A DNA stretch of 53,010 bases from assembly GCA_903922605.1 (NCBI GenBank), contig CAIXUG010000041.1:1-53010 (forward strand). Direction: 5' to 3'. Below are positions 7,788 to 26,620 of the stretch, one piece after another. The translations under genes and the position numbers were made by a program. A model generated the notes under the pieces. The model worked only from the letters and a program-made list of their open reading frames with translations. It made no database searches and had not been told where the DNA came from. Position 1 is the stretch's first letter; each line of letters begins with the position of its first letter. Source of the stretch: an uncultured Verrucomicrobiota bacterium (GTDB taxonomy: Bacteria; Verrucomicrobiota; Verrucomicrobiia; Limisphaerales; UBA9464).

Positions 7788-9080
7788 TCAGCCGTCGAAT
7801 CCGTCTCGAGGGGCCGCGAGCCACCGGTTCAACTTCGTCTCCACCTCATTCCGTGGCGCTGCGAACCGCTCTCGTGACCGCGCAATAAGTTTGTCCCTCC
7901 TACCATTACGATTCTCCAACGGGGCCAGACTGCGCGCCCGGAAGGGCTGCCGGTTGGTGCCGTTTTCGAGGAGCTTCACGACCAACTCGAAGCGGTCGAG
8001 ATCCACCAACTGCTGCTCGACGAACTCGCGGCCGAACTCGTCGCGCAACACCTCGGCGTCGGTGTGACCGACGCGGAACGAAATAAGCGTCCCCACGTTG
8101 CCGAACACTGCCTGCCGCACCGGCAGGGACAACTGGTCGATGTATTGATGGGACAAGGCCAGACACAGCCGATACTTTCGGGCCTCGGCGAGAATGGAGG
8201 CGAAGGCATCCGTGCCGAAGTTCTGAAACTCGTCGATGAACAGGTAGAAATCCCGTCGCTCCTCCTCGGGCACGTTGGCCCGCGCCATCGCCGCCAGTTG
8301 AAACTGTGTCACCAACAACGAGCCGAGCAGGTTCGCCTTGTCGTGACCGAGATTTCCTTTGGAGAGGTTCGCGATGAACACCCTCCCTGTGTCCATGACG
8401 AAGGGGATGCTGACCTTCGTCCGCACCTGCCCGAGGATGTTCCGAATCACCGGACTCTGGAGGAACTGCCCGAGCTTGTTCTGGATCGGCGCAATGGCCT
8501 CGCGCTGGAAGCGCGGGTCGTAGCTCGCGTATTCGTTCGCCCAGAAGTCCCGGATGAACGGGTCTTTGATCTGGCGCACGACCCACGCGCGGTAGTCCGC
8601 GTCCGTCAGCAGCCGGTTCACGCCGAGCAGGGTCGTGTTCGGACAGTCGAGCAACGCCGCGATGGCGTTGTAGAGGATGTATTCGAGCCGTGGCCCCCAC
8701 GAGTCGCGCCAGATGCCCTTGAAGGCACCGACGATGCCGGAGGCGACCAGATGCCGTTCGTCCGGCGGGACATTCGCCAGAAGGTTCAGGCCGATGGGGA
8801 ATTCGAGGTCGCCCGGATTGAAATAGACCAGATGGTCCGCCCGGTGCGGCGGGAGGTGCTGCAACAGTTCCTCGGCCAGGTCGCCGTGCGGATCAATGAG
8901 TCCGACGCCGTGACCGGCGGCGAGATGTTGCACGATCAGGTTGCGGAGCAACGTGGTCTTGCCCGAACCGGTCTTGCCGATCAGGTAGAGATGCTGGCGG
9001 GCATCGGCAGCCGAAAGGCCGAAGGGAAGCGAATCTCCCCAATGGTCATGCACTCCGATGTGGATGGGCTGGTCGTTCAT
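7788..9080 (-). CDS. TraD/VirD4-like type IV coupling ATPase
   Basis: A 430-aa P-loop ATPase. Walker A is GKTGSGKTT at residues 35-43, followed by IDPHGDLAEELL, and Walker B is YLFIDEFQNF. The ALSHQYIDQL segment is the usual sensor region. The type IV coupling family pumps DNA in conjugation. It lacks an N-terminal transmembrane domain, so it is a soluble variant. It shares long blocks with the larger ATPase at 23576-26620. The ATG at 9080 begins the conserved domain; the frame upstream is non-coding leader. A leader of about 170 bases holds a 10-bp hairpin. Confidence 0.85.
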   Translation of the reverse strand: MNDQPIHIGVHDHWGDSLPFGLSAADARQHLYLIGKTGSGKTTLLRNLIVQHLAAGHGVGLIDPHGDLAEELLQHLPPHRADHLVYFNPGDLEFPIGLNLLANVPPDERHLVASGIVGAFKGIWRDSWGPRLEYILYNAIAALLDCPNTTLLGVNRLLTDADYRAWVVRQIKDPFIRDFWANEYASYDPRFQREAIAPIQNKLGQFLQSPVIRNILGQVRTKVSIPFVMDTGRVFIANLSKGNLGHDKANLLGSLLVTQFQLAAMARANVPEEERRDFYLFIDEFQNFGTDAFASILAEARKYRLCLALSHQYIDQLSLPVRQAVFGNVGTLISFRVGHTDAEVLRDEFGREFVEQQLVDLDRFELVVKLLENGTNRQPFRARSLAPLENRNGRRDKLIARSRERFAAPRNEVETKLNRWLAAPRDGFDG

Positions 9081-9111
9081 GGTGCCAAGACCAGCCGCCA
9101 CTCCAGCCGGG

Positions 9112-9144
9112 CCGGAGCTTCCCGGTGTCGGGGTGAAGCTCCGG
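9112..9144 (-). promoter_or_regulatory. Hairpin in the leader of the coupling ATPase
   Basis: CCGGAGCTTC and GAAGCTCCGG form a perfect 10-bp stem with a 13-base loop, about 30 bases before the ATG at 9080. It could attenuate translation or transcription. Confidence 0.5.
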
Positions 9145-9258
9145 TCTGGTCGGCGGCGGGGAATGCCCGCACGCAAGCGCCGGCAAACGTGTCGGGGACG
9201 AGCCGGCGAGGTAATGGCGACTGGGTTCGGAACCAGAATGGTTGCGGGAACGCAATTC

Positions 9259-9267
9259 ATGATACCA
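9259..9267 (-). promoter_or_regulatory. Extended -10 promoter of the coupling ATPase
   Basis: The minus strand reads TGG-TATCAT, matching the promoter pattern seen across the element. It lies about 180 bases before the start codon. Confidence 0.45.
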
Positions 9268-9270
9268 CGG

Positions 9271-9679
9271 CGCGGCCTACGCCGCGTTCCGCCCAGGCCG
9301 CTGCGCGGCGGCGCTTTTGTCCACCTGCAACCCACCCGATAGGGAAGTCGTTCCGCGAAAGCGAAGTCGTCCCTCCGCGTCTCCACGCGAACGGTCGCGG
9401 TAGCGAGGTCGTCGGTGGCGCGGTAGCGCCTGCTCCTGAAACCCGTCCCCCAACGTGTCGTCGCTAAGGGACGATAGTCCCGAGGCGGCCGACTTCGCGG
9501 TTTTTGGTGGCCGGTTGACGGTAGGAAACCTGGACACCCGATAGCCGGAGGAAAAAGCGCGAAGTCGGGCGCTAGCCGACGACACGTTGGGGAACCGGTC
9601 GTGGGCTGGTTAAGCCGTCCCGTGGGAAAATGATGGGCGTCAGCCCCTACATACCATGTATGTCGCCCGTATTGTCGGG
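9271..9679. other. Hairpin-dense non-coding region (candidate oriT or structured RNA)
   Basis: The gap between the divergent ATPase and hicB genes holds a run of perfect hairpins: 9271-9286 (CGCGGC stem), 9297-9309, 9395-9406 and 9417-9430 (both with GGTA loops), 9468-9481 (GGGAC-GATA-GTCCC), 9635-9646, 9649-9663 (ACATAC-CAT-GTATGT) and 9666-9679. A 16-bp perfect inverted repeat (9448-9463 and 9577-9592) encloses a nested 11-bp one (9489-9499 and 9558-9568). No convincing gene is present. The density exceeds what promoters need. I cannot tell whether DNA or RNA structure is selected. Confidence 0.6.
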
Positions 9680-9734
9680 GGTTTGATAAAGGACACGGCC
9701 ATGCTCCGCCCGTTTGCCGAACGTCGGTGAAGCA

Positions 9735-9743
9735 TGGTAAGAT
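9735..9743 (+). promoter_or_regulatory. Extended -10 promoter giving a leaderless hicB transcript
   Basis: TGG-TAAGAT is followed by GGAGCG and the ATG at 9750. A possible -35, TTGCCG, lies 18 bases upstream of the -10. Confidence 0.6.
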
Positions 9744-9749
9744 GGAGCG

Positions 9750-9998
9750 ATGGAAATCACCCACTACATGGTCAAGATCCGGCCGGCGGCCGAAGGCGGC
9801 TATTGGGCGGAAGTCCCGGCGTTGCCGGGCTGCTTTTCAAAAGGCGATAGCCTCGAAGAGGTGACCGCCTACGTGCGCGAGGCCATCGAATGCCATCTGG
9901 CCGGCCTGTTGCAGTCCGGACAACCGTGGCCGGTGGAGAAGCCGTCCCGCAAGGCTTTCGCCTTTCCCGTCTCGGTGCGCGCACCGAGCGCCGCCTAG
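9750..9998 (+). CDS. HicB-like antitoxin-family protein, orphan
   Basis: An 82-aa protein with the HicB fold: MVKIRPAAEGGYWAEVPALPGCFSKGDSLEEV, then a helix REAIECHLAGLLQSG. No HicA lies beside it; the next gene is another HicB with its own promoter. It may be a surviving antitoxin whose toxin was lost, or a partner of the HicA at 10286. The start ATG is six bases past the -10 element. Confidence 0.75.
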   Translation: MEITHYMVKIRPAAEGGYWAEVPALPGCFSKGDSLEEVTAYVREAIECHLAGLLQSGQPWPVEKPSRKAFAFPVSVRAPSAA

Positions 9999-12680: not shown

Positions 12681-13592
12681 TTACTTCCAAGCCGATCCGT
12701 CGTTCAGCCTGCTGACGGATTTGAGGTGACGCGTGCTCTTCCCGACAAACTCCGTCACAGTTTCCAAGTCCGCCGCCACCGCCCGCCGGTCAAAGGCGTT
12801 CAGCTCGGCGCTCACGTTCAGCCACGTCACAAATCCTTCCACGTCACACCCGTGCAAGCCGCCCAGACGCGTTAGGGCTTCCTCAACCTGAGCACGCTTG
12901 ACCCACCCAAATTCCAAACGGACGACTTCGGGCAACCGTCCATGAAACCATCCTGCCGGCATGGTGGCGACGCTGCGGGACGTATGTAGCGCAAACCACA
13001 GCAGGCGCACCAAGGCGGCCCGGAGATAGACGGCTCCCGCCCCCAGCGGCCCGTGCCGTTCCCAGCCTTCGACGGGTTCGGCGTGGATTGCGAGTTCCAA
13101 CGCTCCCTCCGCCACCCGCCACGCCAGGGACTTCGGCGGTGCCGGCCAGACACCCGCGCGGTTAAACCGAGGGCGCAAGGTCAGCAGCAATTCGCGCTCG
13201 CGCGCCAGTGCGGCGGCCTCGTCGGGACATGCTTGCCATTCGATGCGAACGGCGCGGCTCAGTAGCCGTAGGTGGCGGCGGGGCAGCCGTTCGGGATTGG
13301 CCACGCGATAATGGTTCAGCCGTTGCCGCAGGTTCTTCGCCTTGCCGACGTAGAGCACGGTGTCGCCCGCGTCGCGCAGCAGATACACGCCCGGATGCGT
13401 GGGCAGCGCGCGGAAGAACCCGCGCCCGAGCCGTTCGACCAGCGGCCGGGCGTCGGGCAGGAGACGGAGTTGCGCGCCGGACACCCGCGCATCTGACCGC
13501 AAAGGCTGGGACAACGCCAGTCGCCCCTCCGGTCGGACACCGGATGTCCCTGTGAACAACGCAAGGTTGACGCGCGAACCGAAATTACTCAT
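12681..13592 (-). CDS. GIY-YIG nuclease-domain protein (Cho/UvrC-N-like)
   Basis: A 303-aa protein. Residues about 61-145 form the GIY-YIG domain as in the UvrC N-terminus and the SOS-induced nuclease Cho: THPGVYLLRDAGDTVLYVGKAKNLRQRL, an arginine in the following helix, and a metal-binding glutamate in ARERELLL before LRPRFN. The C-terminal 150 residues are not recognised. Cho cuts the 3' side of bulky lesions during nucleotide excision repair, so a damage role fits. The gene diverges from the LexA-like gene, and its start codon lies inside the 16-bp palindrome at 13585-13600, so it is probably repressed by LexA. Confidence 0.8.
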   Translation of the reverse strand: MSNFGSRVNLALFTGTSGVRPEGRLALSQPLRSDARVSGAQLRLLPDARPLVERLGRGFFRALPTHPGVYLLRDAGDTVLYVGKAKNLRQRLNHYRVANPERLPRRHLRLLSRAVRIEWQACPDEAAALARERELLLTLRPRFNRAGVWPAPPKSLAWRVAEGALELAIHAEPVEGWERHGPLGAGAVYLRAALVRLLWFALHTSRSVATMPAGWFHGRLPEVVRLEFGWVKRAQVEEALTRLGGLHGCDVEGFVTWLNVSAELNAFDRRAVAADLETVTEFVGKSTRHLKSVSRLNDGSAWK

Positions 13593-13600
13593 CTGAGTAA
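13585..13600. promoter_or_regulatory. Perfect 16-bp palindrome, probable operator of the LexA-like repressor
   Basis: TTACTCA-TC-TGAGTAA lies between the divergent nuclease and repressor genes and covers the nuclease start codon. It ends three bases before the repressor ATG. I found no second copy in the window. It is not the E. coli or Bacillus SOS box. Confidence 0.65.
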
Positions 13601-14222: not shown

Positions 14223-17200
14223 GTGGCCCGCGCCATCGTCCATCTCGACGCCGACGCGTTTTACGCGTCGGTGGAACAGTCGGCGAATGCCGGCCTGCGG
14301 GGGAAGCCCGTCGCCGTGGGCGGCGAGAAGCGCGGCATCATCGCCAGCGCCAGCTACGAGGCGCGGAAGTTCGGCGTGTTCACGCCCATGCCGACCGTGC
14401 AGGCCCGCCGGCTATGCCCGCGCCTGATTGTTCTCCCCGGTGATTTCGAGCGTTACGAACAGTTCAGCCGGTGGATGTTCAGCTACGCGCAGGACTTCAC
14501 GCCGGACGTGGAAATTGCCTCCGTGGACGAGGGCTACTTCGACCTTTCCGCCACGCCGAAGCCGCCCCGCGAGGTCGCCACCATCGTCCGTGACGCCATC
14601 CGTCAGAGTCTCAAAATCAGCGTCAGCGAAGGCCTCGCCAGCAACAAGCTGGTGAGCCAGATTGCGGCCAAGCTCCACAAGCCCGCCGCGTTCGCCGAGG
14701 TGGCCGTGGGCGCCGAGTTGGATTTCCTCGCACCGCTTCCCAACAAATGGTTGCCCGGTGTGGGGCCGAAGACCGCCGCGCGTCTCGATGCCGCCGGGCT
14801 GGCAACCGTCGCCCATATCGCCGGCACGCCCGTTGATATGCTCGAATTGCTCGTGGGCAACCAAGCCCTCGCGCTGCGTCAGTTTGCGCGGGGCATTGAT
14901 GAACGGCCCGTGGTGCCCCTCCGGGAAGCGGCCAAGTCGTTTGGTGAACAGCAGACCTTTGCCGCCGACGTGACGGACGAAGGTTTTGCGGAAGCCACTT
15001 TGCGCCGCATGGCGGACAACCTCTTCGCCCGTGTGCGGGCCGAAGGCCGCACCGTCCGCACCCTGACGGTCAAGGTGCGTTACAACGACTTCGCCGAGGA
15101 CCAGTGCGGCGAAAGCCTGCGGGAACCGACGGCCCTCGAAACCGACGTGTATGGCCGGCTGGGGATCATGCTCCGGCAGGCGTGGCGGCGGCGCGTCAGC
15201 CTTCGCCTCGTATCGCTGAAGCTGTCCAACGTCCACGACGGCCGGTTCAGCGTGGAACTGCCCCTGGAGGCCAATGCGCGCAGGCAGGGGGCCAACGAGC
15301 GGCTGGCCCGCGTCGTGGACGATCTTCGCAAGGCGCGGGGCCATTCGATCATCCTGCGCGGCCACGACTTCACGTTGCGAAGCGCACCCGCTGCCAGCCC
15401 GACCGCCGCGCCCGTCGCGGCTCCGCCGCTCAAGCTCGTGGTGCGGGTGACACCGAAGCGCACCGCCTTCGTGCCGTTGCGCGTCCACAGCCACTACACG
15501 TTTCTCGACTCGACCCTCTCGCCGACGGCCATCGTCGAACTCGCGGTGAAGCACGGGCTGCCCGCCGTCGCGTTGACGGACAGCGGCAACCTGCATGGGG
15601 CCGCCGAGTTCGCACAGGCCGCGCGGCAGGCGGGTATCAAACCGATCTTGGGCGCGGAGCTTTCCGTGGGCGGTCACACGTTGCTGGCCTATGCCGCCAC
15701 GGCACGGGGCTACGCCAACCTCTGCCGCGTGCTGTCCCGTCCGAACAACCGAGAGACGGGCGACGAGGCGTCGGTGGCGAACCGGCAACGCGCGCCGTTT
15801 CGGCGGAGCGACCTGGAAGGCTGGACCGAAGGGCTGCTGGCCGTATCCGACGATCCCGCGCTCGCGGACCTGTTCCCCGGCCGCTTCTATCAGGCCGCCG
15901 CCAAAGTCCCCGGCAGGTTCCCGGCGGTGCTCTGTCCGCCTGTGCGCTACGGCACGCCCGACGACCGTCTGAAGTTCGACGTGGTGCAAAGCATCCGCAC
16001 CCGCACCCTGCTCCGGCAGGCACACGCCGGGAAGCAGGACGGGCCGTTCCATTTTCGTTCCCCGGCCGAAGTCGCGCCGTGGTTCGCGCGCCATCCCGAT
16101 TGGGCCGCGCACAGTCTGGAACTCGCCGAGCGGTGCGCCTTTGAGTTCCCGTTCGGCCCGCCGCAGTTCCCGGACTTCGTGACGCCCGACGGGGCCGCGC
16201 CCCGCGACTTCCTCCGCCGGCTGGTGCTGACCGGATTACGGAAACGCTATGGCACGCGCGCCCCGCAGTATGCGGCCCAGGTGGACGAGGAACTGCGGAT
16301 CATCGCCGAGGTGGGTTACGAAGCCTACTTCCTCGTGGTGTGGGAGATCCTCCAGGACTGCCGTGCGCACGGCATTGACTGGATCACGCGCGGCTCCGCC
16401 GCCGACTCGATGGTCTGCTACTGCCTCCGCATCAGCGACGTGTGTCCGATCCGCTTTGATCTCTACTTCAAGCGGTTCCTGAACCGCGAGCGTATGGCGC
16501 TCCAAAAGCTCCCGGACATAGACATTGATTTCCCGCACGACCGGAAGGACGACGTGGTGGACCTGATCTTCGCGCGCTACGGCCGCGAGCGGTGCGCCAT
16601 CGTGGGCGGGTTCTCCACGTATCAGGCCCGCGCCGCATTCGCGGACATCGCGAAAGTGCTGGGCGTGTCGGAAGGCCAGGTGCGGCGGTTCACCGAACAC
16701 TTTCCGTGGACGAGTTCCGGCAACCTGGTGGAGCACCTGCGGGGGGACGCCGAATGCCGTGAACTCCCGTTGGACGAGGAGCCGTTCCAGACGGCGTTGG
16801 CACTGGCGGCGTTCCTCGACGGCGTGCCGCGCAATCCCAAGATGCACCCGTGCGGGGTCGTGCTCTCACGACAGCCGATGCACGAACTGACGCCGACGTT
16901 CCTCTCCGCCAAGGGCTATCCGACCACGCATCTCGACATGGACGCCGTGGAATTGGTCGGCCTCGTGAAGCTCGACGTGCTCGCGCAAGGCGGGCTGGCC
17001 GTGTTGCGGGACGCCAAGGAATCATTGATCCGACGCGGTGTGAGCGTGGACTTCGGCGCGTTGGAGCCGTGGGCCGATCCGTCCGTGTGGGCCATGATCG
17101 CCGGGGGTGGCGCGCGGGCGGTCCATCACATCGAAAGCCCGGCCATGACCTCGCTCTGCCAGATGACGAACGTGCGGGAGATTGACGGCGTCATCGGCAT

Positions 17201-18470
17201 TGTCGCCGTCATCCGGCCGGGGGCGGCCAACGAAAACAAGAAGCGCAGTTTTACCCGGCGCTATCAGGGTTTGGAGCCGGTCACGTATCCGCACCCGTCC
17301 TTGGAAGCGTGCCTGCGAAGCACCTACGGACTCGTCACGTTCGAGGAACATATCCTGCAAATCAGCGAAGCGTTCGCCGGGCTGCCGGGCGGGCGTGCCG
17401 ACGTGCTGCGCCGCGCCTTGAACAAGGGGAAGACCGCCGTCATTGCGGAGCTAAGGGAGGAGTTTTTTGCGTGTGCCTTGGCGCGGGGACACCCCCCGGA
17501 GAAGGCGGCCGAAGTGTGGGAGTTGGTGGCGGGCTTCGCCGGGTATGCCTTCAACAAGGCGCATTCCACCGCCTACGGGGTCGAGGCGTATTGGGGCGCT
17601 TGGATGAAACATTATTATCCCGCCGAATTTCTCGCGGGCGTGCTCACCAACGGAAAGGGCTTTTACTCGCCGCTCGTTTACGTGCTCGAATGCCTTCGGC
17701 TCGGCTTGAAGCTATTGCCTCCGAGCGTGAATGCGCCCGGCCCGAAGTTTGGCGTGGAAGCCGGGGCCATTCGTGTGCCGGTGACGCACCTGAAAGGGCT
17801 GACCGACCGCACCGCCAAGACATTGCTGGCGGAACGGCGGCGGGCACCCTTTACGTCGCTCGCGGACTTCGCCCGTCGCGTCACCCCTCTGCCCGAAGAA
17901 ATGGAAGCCATAATCCGGGCGGGGGCGTTGGACGGGTTCGGCCGCCCGCGCACCGAACAGTTTTGGGAGGCGCAGTTGCTTGCCCGCACCTTCGGCGATA
18001 GGCACGCCCACGGCCAAGGTTGGTTGCTGCCGCCGCCCGGTCTGGACCGGCTCCCCGAAGTCGCCTTGCGCGAACCGACCCGCCGTGAACGGCTCGAATG
18101 GGAAAGCGACCTGTTCGGGTTCACCATCTCCGGTCATCCGTTGGAACTGTTCCCGGACGTGGCCTGGCAGAGCTACTGTCCTGTGGCGCGTCTCCATGAG
18201 TTCGTGGGGCAGACTGTGGTGACGTGCGGGCTGGTGGTGGAGGCGCGCGTGCATCATCAGGCGACCGGTGAGCCGATGAAGTTTATGACCGTCGCCGACC
18301 GCAGCGGCATCGTGGAGACGGAGCTGTTCGCGGCCAGCTACCGCAGTCACGCGCTGGCGACGATCCGGTATCCGGTGTTGGAGGTTGAGGGACGGGTCGA
18401 GCCGTTCGAGAACGGAAACGGTCACACGCTGCGCGTTATGCGCGCGGGGAAGCCCCGCACGGTCGCGTGA
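14223..18470 (+). CDS. Fusion of DNA polymerase IV (Y family) with DnaE-type polymerase III alpha (C family)
   Basis: One 1,415-aa frame. Residues 1-380 are a full DinB polymerase: HLDADAFYASVE (D9, likely steric gate Y14), SVDEGYFDLS (D102, E103), helix-hairpin-helix (LPGVGPKTAARL) and little finger. An Ala/Pro linker (about 385-412) leads to a DnaE polymerase: PHP domain from RVHSHYTFLDS (R420), GSAADSM, catalytic PDIDIDF (D767, D769), KLDVLAQGG (D918), FNKAHSTAYG, helix-hairpin-helix and an OB fold. The C-family part has about 1,000 residues, like error-prone DnaE2. All active-site acids of both enzymes are present. ImuB of the mutasome is a dead Y-family protein; here the Y-family part looks active. 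Translation starts at GTG, four bases after the LexA-like stop. Confidence 0.9.
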   Translation: MARAIVHLDADAFYASVEQSANAGLRGKPVAVGGEKRGIIASASYEARKFGVFTPMPTVQARRLCPRLIVLPGDFERYEQFSRWMFSYAQDFTPDVEIASVDEGYFDLSATPKPPREVATIVRDAIRQSLKISVSEGLASNKLVSQIAAKLHKPAAFAEVAVGAELDFLAPLPNKWLPGVGPKTAARLDAAGLATVAHIAGTPVDMLELLVGNQALALRQFARGIDERPVVPLREAAKSFGEQQTFAADVTDEGFAEATLRRMADNLFARVRAEGRTVRTLTVKVRYNDFAEDQCGESLREPTALETDVYGRLGIMLRQAWRRRVSLRLVSLKLSNVHDGRFSVELPLEANARRQGANERLARVVDDLRKARGHSIILRGHDFTLRSAPAASPTAAPVAAPPLKLVVRVTPKRTAFVPLRVHSHYTFLDSTLSPTAIVELAVKHGLPAVALTDSGNLHGAAEFAQAARQAGIKPILGAELSVGGHTLLAYAATARGYANLCRVLSRPNNRETGDEASVANRQRAPFRRSDLEGWTEGLLAVSDDPALADLFPGRFYQAAAKVPGRFPAVLCPPVRYGTPDDRLKFDVVQSIRTRTLLRQAHAGKQDGPFHFRSPAEVAPWFARHPDWAAHSLELAERCAFEFPFGPPQFPDFVTPDGAAPRDFLRRLVLTGLRKRYGTRAPQYAAQVDEELRIIAEVGYEAYFLVVWEILQDCRAHGIDWITRGSAADSMVCYCLRISDVCPIRFDLYFKRFLNRERMALQKLPDIDIDFPHDRKDDVVDLIFARYGRERCAIVGGFSTYQARAAFADIAKVLGVSEGQVRRFTEHFPWTSSGNLVEHLRGDAECRELPLDEEPFQTALALAAFLDGVPRNPKMHPCGVVLSRQPMHELTPTFLSAKGYPTTHLDMDAVELVGLVKLDVLAQGGLAVLRDAKESLIRRGVSVDFGALEPWADPSVWAMIAGGGARAVHHIESPAMTSLCQMTNVREIDGVIGIVAVIRPGAANENKKRSFTRRYQGLEPVTYPHPSLEACLRSTYGLVTFEEHILQISEAFAGLPGGRADVLRRALNKGKTAVIAELREEFFACALARGHPPEKAAEVWELVAGFAGYAFNKAHSTAYGVEAYWGAWMKHYYPAEFLAGVLTNGKGFYSPLVYVLECLRLGLKLLPPSVNAPGPKFGVEAGAIRVPVTHLKGLTDRTAKTLLAERRRAPFTSLADFARRVTPLPEEMEAIIRAGALDGFGRPRTEQFWEAQLLARTFGDRHAHGQGWLLPPPGLDRLPEVALREPTRRERLEWESDLFGFTISGHPLELFPDVAWQSYCPVARLHEFVGQTVVTCGLVVEARVHHQATGEPMKFMTVADRSGIVETELFAASYRSHALATIRYPVLEVEGRVEPFENGNGHTLRVMRAGKPRTVA

Positions 18471-18471
18471 A

Positions 18472-19164
18472 TTACACGCCGCCGAGGTCGGCCTGTTCCA
18501 AGACCGGGGCGACGCACTCGGGCGAATCGTTGCGGGCGGAGTTGACGACCTGACTGACGCGGTGACGTTCCAACGCCTCGTCCGCGAGCGGCACGCACAG
18601 AGCCGCGAGCTGCTCCGGTGTCGTGGCCTCGTCCAACCACCGGGTGGCTCCGTCCGCACTGAGGACTACCGGCATCCGGTCGTGAATCGGGGAGGCGGTG
18701 GCGTTTGGCGTGGTCGTCAGAATCGTGAACGTCTGTTCGTGGACGGCGGGGTTTTCGGCGGGTTGCCAGGATTCCCAAAGCCCGGCGAACAGCAGCGGTT
18801 CGCCGTCACGGCGCACAAACCACCACGGCAGCTTTTGTTTGCCCGACGGTTGCCACTCGAAGAAGCCGTCGGCCGGCACCAGGCAGCGGCGGCGTTTGAA
18901 GGCGGAACGGAAGGCGGGTTTGATGGCGACGGTTTCCGAGCGGGCGTTGATGCACGACGCGGCCAGCTTGGTGTCCTTGGCCCACGAGGGAATCAGCCCC
19001 CAGCGCAGTTCGTCCACCACGGGCAATCCGTCCCGCAACCGGATCACCGGGGCCAGTTGCATCGGCGCGACATTGTAGCGCGGCCGGGGCACCAGCAGGG
19101 TCAGTTCGGTTTGGCCGACCCGTATCCGCTTCGGCGGCTTGGCGAGGCTGTAACGTCCGCACAT
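18472..19164 (-). CDS. SRAP-domain abasic-site-processing protein (YedK/HMCES family)
   Basis: A 230-aa SRAP protein. It keeps the catalytic C2 (MCGRY), which crosslinks to abasic sites in single-stranded DNA once the initiator Met is removed. RYNVAP, NARSET, ADGFFEW and HDRMPVVL supply the active-site Asn, Glu and His. The family protects stalled forks from mutagenic bypass. It converges on the polymerase fusion with only one base between stop codons, which fits a shared damage-response module. It is preceded by a hypothetical gene 40 bases upstream in the same direction and may be cotranscribed with it. I see no ribosome-binding site before the ATG. Confidence 0.92.
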   Translation of the reverse strand: MCGRYSLAKPPKRIRVGQTELTLLVPRPRYNVAPMQLAPVIRLRDGLPVVDELRWGLIPSWAKDTKLAASCINARSETVAIKPAFRSAFKRRRCLVPADGFFEWQPSGKQKLPWWFVRRDGEPLLFAGLWESWQPAENPAVHEQTFTILTTTPNATASPIHDRMPVVLSADGATRWLDEATTPEQLAALCVPLADEALERHRVSQVVNSARNDSPECVAPVLEQADLGGV

Positions 19165-22799: not shown

Positions 22800-23579
22800 A
22801 TGAAAGCCACCGACTCCGCCGTTCCGACCGTGGCGGGCAAACCCGTCCTGTCCCCGCTGGACCCCGGCTTCTGGAACGACGCCGGCAATGCCTGGGACTG
22901 GGTGCGCTTCGTCTGGCGGGGACCGGACCCGGTGGTCGAGCTGAACCTGAGCAACGTCTATCGAGAGCAACGCTTCTCGTCGCAAACGATTTATCAGAGC
23001 ATCATCACGGCGGTGGAGCGGCTGAAGCTGCCGGGCACGAAGTGCGAACCGCAGGTGATTCACGAGGGCGGCCGGTTCTCGCCGTTCCGGGTCTATCTCC
23101 AAATCCGCCGCGAGTTCAGCGAGTTCCTCGTCTGCGCCGCCCCCGTCGGCGAATCCTTCTTCCTGACCGTCCGGCGCATCGACCGCTTTCCGCATGTGAA
23201 ATGGTTTCACTACCTGTTGGCGGCGGGGTTCGTCGGCCTGTTGGCCTGCGCCTGTGTGGTGGCGGAAGGCATCCTCCCCGGCCTCGTCCTATTCTGCATC
23301 CTGCTCTCGCTTGCTTGGTCGGTCATGCGCTACGCCGCGTGTGCGACCGGTGCGTGGCTCCGGGAGCATTTGCACGAGGTGCCGATCCTCGGGCCGCTGT
23401 ATCTGCGGTGGTTCCGACCCGACACCTACTTCCGTCAGGACTTGCACGCGGCGTTCCTTTCCTTGGTGGATGGTGTCATCAAAGAAGTCGTCGAGGGTCT
23501 GCAACAGACCCAGGCCATCCGGCCGGCCACCGAGCAGCAGGGCGGCCCCCTCGTGCCCAACCTTCACGAGCAGGGATGA
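22800..23579 (+). CDS. Two-TM hypothetical protein of the coupling operon
   Basis: A 259-aa protein with a soluble N-terminal domain (YREQRFSSQTIYQSIITAVE, SEFLVCAAPVGESFFLTVRR), two adjacent transmembrane segments at about residues 135-170, and a C-terminal helical part (HAAFLSLVDGVIKEVVEGL). I do not recognise a family. It starts 13 bases after the PEGA gene, and its TGA overlaps the ATG of the large ATPase (ATGA, 23576-23579). It may be the membrane anchor of that ATPase, which has no membrane segment of its own. Confidence 0.7.
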   Translation: MKATDSAVPTVAGKPVLSPLDPGFWNDAGNAWDWVRFVWRGPDPVVELNLSNVYREQRFSSQTIYQSIITAVERLKLPGTKCEPQVIHEGGRFSPFRVYLQIRREFSEFLVCAAPVGESFFLTVRRIDRFPHVKWFHYLLAAGFVGLLACACVVAEGILPGLVLFCILLSLAWSVMRYAACATGAWLREHLHEVPILGPLYLRWFRPDTYFRQDLHAAFLSLVDGVIKEVVEGLQQTQAIRPATEQQGGPLVPNLHEQG

Positions 23580-26500
23580 TCGGACACCAGATCGCCCAGG
23601 CGCTGACGGAGCAGTTCTACCGCTGGGAACTGCGGGGCCGGGGCTGGCTGGTCTGGCCGGAACCGGTTCGGTTGGAACCGCCGTTCCGTCCGTTTGAAGG
23701 CCACTATCTTCCGCGCCAACTGGTCGAGGACGACGGCCAGATCGAAAGTCTCGGCAGCAAGTTCGCCAAGGGTCTCGGCCGAATCTTCGGAAGTTCCGCA
23801 CCACCCGTGCTCGAACCGCCGCCCGAGCTGGAGGAACCGGACGCCGACCCGACCGAAGCGCAGGCTGACCTTGTCGAACTGCAGATCGCCCTGCCGCCCG
23901 ACTACCAGCCGCAGGCGTCGGTCTTTGAGCAGTTCCTGTTCAGCATCGGCCACGCGCGCCACCCGGTCGCCTTCGAGGTGATCGGCATGGCGAAGGAACT
24001 AGTGGTGCAAATCACAGCGGGAGCCAGTGACGCGGAAGCGGTGCGGAATCAGCTCAAGGCGTTCTTTCCCGAAGCCGTCATCACCCCGGCAGACCAGTTT
24101 CTGCTGGAGCTGATGGCGGCCGACGACGGCGGCGGGGTGGGCCTCATGGACTTCGGTCTGGAGCGGGAGTTCATGGTGCCGATCAATAACCTCAAGGCCA
24201 TCGCCACCGATCCGCTGGTGAGCCTCTGCGGTGCCCTGGACCGCCTGGCGGAAGGCGAAGCCTGCGTGTTCCAGGTGCTGCTCGAACCGGCCCGCAGTCC
24301 GTGGGCCACGTCCATGATCCGGGCGGTGTCGCTGGGCGACGGGAAACCCTTCTTCGCGAATGACACCGAACTGGTGGGATTGACCCGGCTTAAGGTGGCG
24401 CGGCCGCTGTATGCCACCGTCGTCCGCACGGCGGCGGTGGCCGCCACCCCGGAACGGGTGCTGGCCCTGCTGAAGGCCGTCGCCGGTTCCTTGCGACCGC
24501 TCGCCAACGTGCAGGGCAACCAGCTCGTGCCGCTGACCAACGAGGACTACGACCTGGAGGACCACCTCGCAGACCTGTTGGCGCGGACGAGCCGGCGAAC
24601 CGGGATGCTGCTGAACTCGGACGAGGTGATCGCGCTGGCGCACCTGCCGACGGCGGCGGTGCGGGCGAAGCGTCTGCGCCGGGCGGTGCTCCGCACCCGC
24701 GCGGCCCCCGACGAACTGACGAAGGCCGACGGCATCCTGATCGGGGAGAACGAGCACGAGGGTGTGGTGTCGGACATTTACCTGCCGCTGGCGCAGCGGC
24801 TGGACCATTGCCATATCCTGGGCGGCTCCGGCTCGGGCAAGTCCACGCAGCTCGCCCTGATGGCGGTGCAGGACATGCAACAGGGCCACGGGCTGGCCGT
24901 CATCGATCCGCATGGCGATCTGATCGAGACCCTGCTGCCGCATGTCCCCCCTGAGCGCCTCGACGATGTCATCCTCTTCGATCCGACCGATCAGGAATTT
25001 GCCATCGCCTTCAACCCCCTGGCCGCCGGCTCGTCCCGCGAAAAGGAACTCCTGGCGTCGGACTTCATCGCCGTCATGCGGCAGCACACCTCGGGCTGGG
25101 GCGACCAGATGTCCTCGCTGCTGGGGAACGCGGTGCTGGCCTTGCTCCACCATCCGCGCGGCGGCACGCTGCCGGAACTGCGGCGGTTCCTCGCCGACCC
25201 GAGCTTTCGCACGGAGTTCCTGAAATCGGTCACGCACCCGGAGGTGGCTTACTTCTGGGAGAGCGAGGCGCAGTTCGCGAACAAGGCGGCCGTCGGCTCC
25301 ATCCTGACGCGGCTCGACGCGCTGCTGCGCTACGAGTCGGTGCTCCACATCCTCGGGCAGCGGGCCAACAAGCTCGACTTCGCGGACATCATGGACTCGG
25401 GCAAGATCTTCCTCGCCCGATTGGCGAAGGGGTTGATCGGTTCGGCCAACGCCTACCTGCTGGGCGGGTTGCTGGTGTCGCGGTTCTATCAGACCGCCAT
25501 CGCCCGGCAGAGCCGGCGGCGCGAGGACCGCCGGCCGTTCCTGCTGATGATGGACGAGGCTGGGGAGTTGCTGACGCCGACGGTGGCGGAGATCCTGACG
25601 GGCACGCGGAAGTATGGCCTCGGGCTGACCCTCGCTCACCAGTCGCTGCGGCAGCTCGCTGGCGACGACGAGGTGTTCGGGGCCGTCACCGGCAGTTGCG
25701 GCACGAAGATCAGCTTTCAGGTCGGGAGCGATGACGCGCGCAAGCTGGCCGAGGAGTTCGGCGGGTTCACGGCGGCGGACCTCATGGGCCTGCCCAAGTT
25801 GCACGCCCTGGCGCGGGTCGGTTCACGCGACCGGGCGTTCAACCTGAAGACCCGGTTCCTGCCGTCCGCACCACGATCTCAGGAGGAAGCCTACGCCGAT
25901 CTGCTCGGGCGGACCCGCCAACGCTACGGCACGCCGCGCGCCGAGATCGCCACGGAGTTGGCGGCACTGCGGCAGTTCCTGCCTAAGCGCAAGGCGGCGG
26001 ACCCCTTTGCCGAACTGTCCGCCAAACAAAAGCGGGAGCGGAAGCAACGCGAAGAACCGGCGGAGGCGGTGGTGGAATCCGATTCCGAGGACGCGGCGGC
26101 GGAGGCGCAGGAGGTGGTCAAGGGTGAGGCGATCAAGAACACCCTCATCCAGGCGGCGGGCGGCTGGGGCTTCTCCCACCGGACGGAACAGACGGTCCCG
26201 GACGGTGGCGGCCGGATTGACCTGGTGCTGACGCGGGGGGAACTGGTCCTCGCCTGCGAAATATCGGCCACCACGTCCGCCCGGCACGAGGTCGCCAATC
26301 TCCAAAAGCGTCTCCGCGTCGGCTGCCCCCTGATCTACCACCTGTGCGACCATGTCAAACGTCGGGGCCAGATCGAGGCGTTGCTGGACGGGCTGCTGAG
26401 CGCCGGGGACCGGACCAAGGTCCACTGCCTCTCCACCGGCCAGTTCCTGGCGCACCTGGGCGAACTGGCCGCCGCTAACCGCACTCCCGATCCCGCTCCT

Positions 26501-26620
26501 GGGGATAAAACCGAGCTGGCTCTGACGCAGTCCCTGACTCCGGTCGAGATGCAGGCCGAAGCCCAACGAATGCTGGCCGCGCTGGCGGCGAAGCTTCGGC
26601 GAAAACCACCGTCCAAGTAA
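23576..26620 (+). CDS. Large TraD/VirD4-like coupling ATPase with nuclease-like C-terminus
   Basis: A 1,014-aa protein. An N-terminal region of about 400 residues (DYQPQASVFEQFLFSIGHAR...) precedes a TraD/VirD4 motor domain with Walker A GGSGSGKST (from about residue 416), VIDPHGDLIETLL, and Walker B FLLMMDEAGELL (about 655), then ALARVGSRDRAF. A charged linker (about 815-850) leads to a C-terminal domain with GGRIDLVL (about 878) and ACEIS (about 892), reminiscent of a PD-(D/E)XK nuclease core. It is paralogous to the 430-aa ATPase at 7788-9080 in the motor. It is the last gene of the element before the tRNA. Confidence 0.85.
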   Translation: MIGHQIAQALTEQFYRWELRGRGWLVWPEPVRLEPPFRPFEGHYLPRQLVEDDGQIESLGSKFAKGLGRIFGSSAPPVLEPPPELEEPDADPTEAQADLVELQIALPPDYQPQASVFEQFLFSIGHARHPVAFEVIGMAKELVVQITAGASDAEAVRNQLKAFFPEAVITPADQFLLELMAADDGGGVGLMDFGLEREFMVPINNLKAIATDPLVSLCGALDRLAEGEACVFQVLLEPARSPWATSMIRAVSLGDGKPFFANDTELVGLTRLKVARPLYATVVRTAAVAATPERVLALLKAVAGSLRPLANVQGNQLVPLTNEDYDLEDHLADLLARTSRRTGMLLNSDEVIALAHLPTAAVRAKRLRRAVLRTRAAPDELTKADGILIGENEHEGVVSDIYLPLAQRLDHCHILGGSGSGKSTQLALMAVQDMQQGHGLAVIDPHGDLIETLLPHVPPERLDDVILFDPTDQEFAIAFNPLAAGSSREKELLASDFIAVMRQHTSGWGDQMSSLLGNAVLALLHHPRGGTLPELRRFLADPSFRTEFLKSVTHPEVAYFWESEAQFANKAAVGSILTRLDALLRYESVLHILGQRANKLDFADIMDSGKIFLARLAKGLIGSANAYLLGGLLVSRFYQTAIARQSRRREDRRPFLLMMDEAGELLTPTVAEILTGTRKYGLGLTLAHQSLRQLAGDDEVFGAVTGSCGTKISFQVGSDDARKLAEEFGGFTAADLMGLPKLHALARVGSRDRAFNLKTRFLPSAPRSQEEAYADLLGRTRQRYGTPRAEIATELAALRQFLPKRKAADPFAELSAKQKRERKQREEPAEAVVESDSEDAAAEAQEVVKGEAIKNTLIQAAGGWGFSHRTEQTVPDGGGRIDLVLTRGELVLACEISATTSARHEVANLQKRLRVGCPLIYHLCDHVKRRGQIEALLDGLLSAGDRTKVHCLSTGQFLAHLGELAAANRTPDPAPGDKTELALTQSLTPVEMQAEAQRMLAALAAKLRRKPPSK

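Follow-up and report, generated by a model that had tools for sequence, protein, structure and literature searches.

A LexA-linked gene joining a Y-family and a DnaE-type DNA polymerase in one chain in uncultured Verrucomicrobiota

The stretch of DNA analysed here (the window) comprises 53,010 nucleotides, positions 1 to 53,010 of contig CAIXUG010000041.1 in assembly GCA_903922605.1, from an uncultured Verrucomicrobiota bacterium (Limisphaerales; UBA9464). It carries a gene that encodes a Y-family DNA polymerase (PolY) and a DnaE-type polymerase III alpha subunit in a single chain, four bases behind the gene for the repressor-protease LexA. This is a real, conserved fusion of two polymerases, apparently of single origin, with intact active-site residues and linkage to LexA. 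We propose, with a probability of about 0.62, that the protein is a LexA-controlled, single-chain version of the PolY–DnaE2–RecA mutasome predicted for Bacteroidetes, with a clamp-binding-like motif in the DnaE half only.

Results

Architecture of the fusion protein

The gene starts with GTG and runs through 1,415 codons with no internal stop (Table 1). Pfam profiles place IMS (residues 8–150, 1.5e-42) and IMS_C (238–338, 2e-17) in the PolY half, and PHP (419–545, 2.3e-22), DNA_pol3_alpha (663–921, 3.8e-68), the finger domain (926–1087, 2.4e-29) and HHH_6 (1161–1245, 3.1e-17) in the DnaE half. The single two-polymerase frame given in a preliminary description of the sequence is thus confirmed, and alignments bear out the residues listed there (D9, D102, E103, PDIDIDF and KLD). 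The closest solved structures by sequence are the Pol III alpha subunits of E. coli and Thermus, the first half leading to DNA polymerase IV. Among NCBIfam models, the DnaE superfamily model TIGR00594 scores above its cut-off for the fusion protein; the models for Pol IV and for error-prone DnaE2 (NF004225) score below theirs. Two further elements of the preliminary description held in part: the helix-hairpin-helix (HhH) of the PolY thumb matches IMS_HHH_1 weakly (E 0.0021, below the cut-off), and the oligonucleotide/oligosaccharide-binding (OB) region can be placed only via alignment with E. coli DnaE (to E. coli residue 1058), since a Pfam scan of the fusion protein gave no OB-fold match. 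The metal-site histidines of the PHP domain, whose degradation is a hallmark of DnaE2, are degraded in the window fusion and vary among its homologues. The DnaE half extends 12 residues past a point beyond which ten DnaE1 rows have 95–125 residues and the second copy in the host genome (on C31) has 54.

Table 1. Coordinates of the fusion gene, its parts and the adjoining features in the window.
Feature	Position	Strand	Evidence or remark
PolY::DnaE fusion gene, 1415 residues	14223..18470	+	one open frame, kept in 20 distinct full-length rows
Y-family polymerase half, residues 1-350	14223..15272	+	Pfam; D9/D102/E103 intact; dN/dS
RecA N-terminus-like block, residues 351-386	15273..15380	+	conservation; profile match to RecA N-terminus
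Variable linker, residues 387-416	15381..15470	+	length variation among homologues; dN/dS
DnaE half, residues 417-1415	15471..18467	+	degraded PHP, polymerase core, HhH, without long C-terminal domain
PDIDIDF, residues 764-770, catalytic D765 and D767	16512..16532	+	alignment
KLD, residues 916-918, catalytic D918	16968..16976	+	alignment
QGWLL, clamp-binding-like motif of the DnaE half	18015..18029	+	alignment, read by eye
Candidate LexA operator, 7+2+7 palindrome	13585..13600		just upstream of lexA
LexA repressor-protease, 204 residues	13604..14218	+	TIGR00498 133.6 bits (cut-off 110.95); Peptidase_S24, LexA_DNA_bind
GIY-YIG (UvrC/Cho-like) nuclease	12681..13592	-	profile matches; divergent from lexA
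SRAP (SOS-associated peptidase)	18472..19164	-	PF02586 3.7e-69; convergent to the fusion gene

Homologues and their distribution

Homologue searches were largely restricted to the phylum of the window. They gave 28 distinct rows after three duplicates between collections had been dropped; 20 of these are full-length, including the window gene and its C31 paralogue, and the other 19 share 48–86% identity with the window protein. A database check for further DinB–DnaE proteins in one chain, as the preliminary description had suggested, therefore returned 18 distinct full-length fusions besides the paralogue. Among 39 genomes, 12 (host included, short fragments in G008 aside) hold matches of more than 50% identity, and in nine the frame covers both halves (G000, G002, G004, G011, G030, G032, G033, G034 and G037). 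A contig end cuts the gene of G027, yet the junction is spanned; the contig-cut genes of G005 (residues 385–1415) and G036 (466–1413) show the DnaE side only. A sample of 387 genomes of the phylum, host included and searched with an E limit of 1e-100, added fusions in G225 and G377 and one in G332 that is split over two contigs, one of them spanning the junction. A scan of named genomes with six patterns, whose reach is limited to close relatives, found 16 loci: 11 full-length fusions, three contig-cut ones (L043, L052 and L053) and two stand-alone PolY genes. The record titles name Verrucomicrobia, Limisphaerales or Kiritimatiellia, except for one metagenome-assembled genome titled Klebsiella pneumoniae (L045), which is probably mislabelled, and one titled Akkermansia muciniphila (L049), a verrucomicrobium, which is perhaps mislabelled. 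G042 encodes a DnaE of 43% identity with no PolY match within the 9 kb read. Two side observations concern copy number and decay: besides its full fusion on C60, G004 has partial matches at C27:134-1459 (74%) and C13:45953-46960 (80%), so that more copies may exist there, and short frames at C21:1928-2487 of G008, perhaps a decaying fusion, match only the end of the DnaE half.

Outside cellular genomes, viral contigs gave a single weak DnaE-like match (25% identity to residues 664–1199). With a 300-residue junction query, 65 phage records matched in pieces and none covered 80% of it. At least 5,000 plasmid records matched, and among the matches listed 53 cover 80% of the query at one place; in all seven of these that were opened, PolY-type and DnaE genes are separate, as their annotation or frames show.

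Judged by eye among the matches listed, a long DnaE2A-like match occurs in one of the 12 fusion-bearing genomes, as against 17 of the 27 others; the count becomes 19 if G001 and G019, with two partial matches, are added, and seven were confirmed as DnaE2A by BLAST. Mutual exclusion of the fusion and DnaE2A is suggestive only (Fisher p 0.002, with relatedness ignored), and G005 has a contig-cut fusion gene as well as a DnaE2A with an ImuB-like neighbour.

Active sites and selection

All 25 rows with letters at the relevant positions keep D9, D102 and E103. In the DnaE half, D765 and D767 are found in 23 of 23 such rows and D918 in 22 of 23, the exception being L051, which is gapped at this place. 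The view that the Y-family half looks active, unlike ImuB, is therefore upheld, as far as catalytic residues can tell. Ratios of non-synonymous to synonymous substitution rates (dN/dS), calculated by the Nei-Gojobori method for eight pairs of our choosing, are rough in those pairs in which dS exceeds 1. They amount to 0.05–0.12 for PolY in six of the eight pairs (one pair has no amino-acid change and one no PolY data), 0.07–0.21 for DnaE in all eight, and 0.19–0.74 for the linker, for which seven pairs give a value. By this measure, purifying selection is strong on both halves and much weaker on the linker.

Junction and clamp-binding-like motif

The PolY core is followed by a conserved block (residues 351–386, RRLAxxVDxLRxxxGxxVxxRGHDFxL) and then by a linker whose length differs greatly among homologues. 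An hhalign comparison of a 15-row profile of the block with 20 RecA N-termini gave an in-register match with a score of 23.07, a probability of 67% and a single-comparison E of 5e-5; column-shuffled controls had a mean of 8.1 and a maximum of 15.6, and none of 200 reached 23.07. In PMC6511836, too, the direct match to RecA is reported to be about as weak (HHsearch probability below 68%), and the one through DUF4113 to be stronger. The RecA-like block of the fusion may bind RecA.

Residues 1265–1269 of the DnaE half read QxWL(L/F/I) in 19 of the 23 rows with letters there and WLL or WLF, without the Q, in three; by eye, the motif is absent in L091. In four Bacteroidota PolY proteins, a QINLF-like clamp motif precedes the tail, and none was seen by eye at the corresponding place in the fusions.

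LexA linkage and host genome

lexA adjoins the fusion or PolY gene in 22 of 25 loci, the others being L090, L052 and the cut L043. The sequence of the window LexA shows the A–G cleavage site and the Ser/Lys dyad. Just upstream of lexA lies the candidate operator TTACTCATCTGAGTAA, and a palindrome (7/7 or at least 7/8 outer pairs) starting 14–24 bases before lexA occurs in 18 of 22 loci, often similar to TACTGTnCATnTGnACAGTA; this criterion has no shuffle control, some lexA starts are extrapolated, and palindromes of the same grade stand further upstream in many loci. Exact dyads of at least five bases are shared by up to five loci, as against at most two in 30 base shuffles, and related loci share them by descent. 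With up to two mismatches, the window operator type occurs at this one place in the host genome, and the C31 operator type before the C31 lexA and at one two-mismatch site on C52, which may be due to chance because the first pattern also had one match in a control with reversed patterns. LexA probably represses its own promoter together with the fusion gene.

The host genome (5.3 Mb, 90 contigs, 95.8% complete) contains the second pair of lexA and fusion gene on C31. Its three PF07733 (DnaE) genes are one DnaE1 (L009, C29) and the two fusions, its three PF00817 (IMS) genes are DinB (C72) and the two fusions, and just two S24 peptidase matches were found, namely the LexA genes preceding the fusions. 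There is one PF00154 (RecA) match. A lack of ImuA and ImuB, a criterion for the DnaE2B–PolY–RecA mutasome (PMC12926913), was assessed for the host from these DnaE, IMS and RecA matches.

The remaining neighbours are less constant. Across the 25 loci compared, SRAP occupies the equivalent position in L011 and L043, and L089 has a 35%-identical SRAP match upstream of lexA. A GIY-YIG gene lies upstream or downstream in the fetched stretch of six of the 25 loci; in the window, the gene may really begin at a later codon, because its first ATG (13592) falls within the candidate LexA operator. As a separate observation, genes for TrwB/HerA coupling-protein-like ATPases (conjugation) flank the cassette at 7788–9764 (-) and 23042–26620 (+).

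Phylogeny

A quick DnaE tree (LG+G4, 48 rows), with branches assessed by the Shimodaira-Hasegawa-like approximate likelihood-ratio test (SH-aLRT), drew a program warning of long branches meeting. In it, the 23 DnaE rows that belong to the fusion family, of which at least three are contig-cut, form one clade (SH-aLRT 100), next to the solo DnaE of G042 (100) and then to the DnaE proteins of four Bacteroidota and one Desulfosarcina two-gene systems (98). This clade is apart from DnaE1 and from DnaE2A plus Streptomyces; the single Streptomyces row, from a group called DnaE2B in PMC12926913, joins DnaE2A in this quick tree. The PolY tree unites 23 rows labelled as fused (L053 is cut and its fusion not seen) with the two stand-alone PolY in one clade (100/100). 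The stand-alone L054 and L055 nest beside the fused L093 (100/98), and this position inside the fusion clade suggests that their DnaE half was lost later. If the DnaE tree is followed, a single event that joined a PolY–DnaE2 gene pair like those of Bacteroidota probably gave rise to the gene.

Discussion

The preliminary description compared the protein with the ImuB–DnaE2 mutasome, in which ImuB is an adaptor for DnaE2 (PMC6511836). This comparison holds in that both are LexA-linked and pair a Y-family protein with a DnaE2-type polymerase with degraded PHP. However, ImuA–ImuB–DnaE2 consists of separate proteins with an inactive ImuB, an ImuB-C domain and a DnaE of the DnaE2A clade, whereas the catalytic residues of the window PolY are intact and its DnaE lies outside DnaE2A. 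The comparison was thus incomplete, since the nearest described system, also by the DnaE tree, is the Bacteroidetes module of an apparently active PolY and DnaE2 encoded by separate genes (PMC6511836, PMC12926913). PMC12926913 divides DnaE2 into the groups A, B and X, lists the Bacteroidetes DnaE2B with active PolY and RecA among 11 proposed PolY-/DnaE2-based module types, and states that only two of these had been characterised. The fusion resembles this predicted module in its apparently active PolY, its DnaE2-type polymerase, the candidate RecA-like motif after the PolY core and its predicted SOS-type control. In contrast, the Bacteroidetes module comprises two genes and two proteins, has a QINLF-like motif in PolY and is under a non-canonical LexA (PMC8565304), whereas the window has one chain, a LexA of the TIGR00498 type and no clamp-like motif recognised outside the DnaE half. 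Gene pairs on three of four Bacteroidota plasmids overlap or lie very close together: those of Emticicia and Adhaeribacter overlap by one and four bases, respectively, and those of Chryseobacterium are 13 bases apart. The Desulfosarcina ovata plasmid Do28_1 likewise has LexA, PolY and DnaE in one gene row, with a RecA-like PolY tail by eye, but its PolY (376 residues) and DnaE (1033 residues) genes are separate and a DUF72 gene stands between lexA and PolY. DinB (Pol IV) and DnaE1 represent the fold families of the two halves, but are stand-alone proteins, and the host has its own copies of both.

The preliminary description also knew of no polymerase of this build. In line with this, our literature search, which covered titles and abstract openings, found no paper on a PolY–DnaE fusion. 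In the main text of PMC12926913 the word 'fusion' never occurs and 'fused', used twice, does not refer to PolY with DnaE, and the available parts of PMC6511836, PMC3919608, PMC3765255 and PMC8565304 describe no such fusion. Separate-gene versions have been described, as set out above.

Several observations weigh against a single-chain PolY–DnaE2–RecA mutasome. With HMMER (E up to 10), the RecA-like block failed to retrieve RecA from the host genome, and six segments searched against Pfam matched neither RecA nor DUF4113. Some two-gene DnaE proteins have clamp-like motifs as well (QAELF in Desulfosarcina, QLTLL in Chryseobacterium), so that a DnaE motif of this kind does not set the fusion apart, and the likely change is a loss in PolY and not a gain in DnaE. 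In the PolY tree, links between groups are poorly supported, long branches meet and the fusions do not group with Bacteroidota PolY; the two-gene origin is therefore argued from the DnaE tree only, a quick one with its long-branch warning. L054 and L055 have a stand-alone PolY and no DnaE match in the available stretch, which is short for L054, and the DnaE half of L051 (8625–8731) lacks residues ~860–972 and hence D918, through either a real loss or an assembly error; catalysis by DnaE is thus not indispensable everywhere. An AlphaFold model of residues 1–1200 (12-row alignment) had a predicted local distance difference test score of 54.9 and a predicted template modelling score of 0.43, was unusable and was not used. 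As an observation beside these, the PolY genes of L054 (1576-2796) and L055 (5962-7182) follow lexA, are 68–69% identical to the PolY half of the window and keep the RecA-like block.

L051, L054 and L055 speak for the explanation that one half is an adaptor only, as ImuB is for DnaE2 (PMC6511836), with PolY docking RecA and DnaE synthesising, or the reverse. We consider this unlikely, although it has the ImuB precedent, because, these loci apart, the catalytic residues do not vary in either half, and purifying selection is strong on each. It is less probable again that the chain is a precursor from which linker proteolysis or an internal start yields two ordinary polymerases: the linker is variable and fast-evolving and there are seven in-frame GTG or TTG codons at 15370–15560, but there is no ATG among them, no plain Shine-Dalgarno sequence ahead of them by eye, and the frame is open in all 20 full-length rows. 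A role as a second replicative alpha subunit or gap-filling repair polymerase, instead of lesion bypass, would fit the polymerase core and the clamp-like motif; given the host's own DnaE1, the short C-terminus, the degraded PHP and the position behind LexA, we regard it as improbable. That an assembly or sequencing error joined two genes, which the preliminary description had named as a refuting case and for which the 90-contig assembly might speak, is ruled out for practical purposes by the C31 copy, 18 further distinct full-length homologues and purifying selection in both halves.

Returning to the single-chain PolY–DnaE2–RecA mutasome, the preliminary description's idea of a covalent mutasome gains from the conserved single chain behind LexA and from intact active-site residues in both halves, and its division into bypass and extension would correspond to the following hypothetical sequence of steps: (i) RecA filaments on damaged DNA would provoke LexA self-cleavage and thereby switch on the fusion gene; (ii) the RecA-like block would dock RecA at the junction; (iii) the Y half would, most likely, insert a nucleotide opposite the lesion; (iv) the tethered DnaE half would take over the primer end and extend it at the clamp, amounting to an intramolecular polymerase switch, probably with no proofreading because its PHP domain is degraded. 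Tentatively, and at less than even odds, we extend this to a self-contained SOS unit of LexA and a two-polymerase chain, in which insertion and extension would be handed over between tethered active sites of two polymerase families with RecA at the junction, the clamp would be bound by the DnaE half only, and each LexA would perhaps control only its own copy.

In summary, two error-prone polymerases that are usually separate proteins are joined in one chain here, in hosts that are mostly uncultured bacteria. The fusion fixes the two polymerases at a ratio of 1:1, and single-site mutants of this one protein could serve to test polymerase switching, activation by RecA and use of the clamp. As a conserved natural fusion, it provides strong circumstantial evidence that apparently active Y-family and C-family polymerases cooperate.

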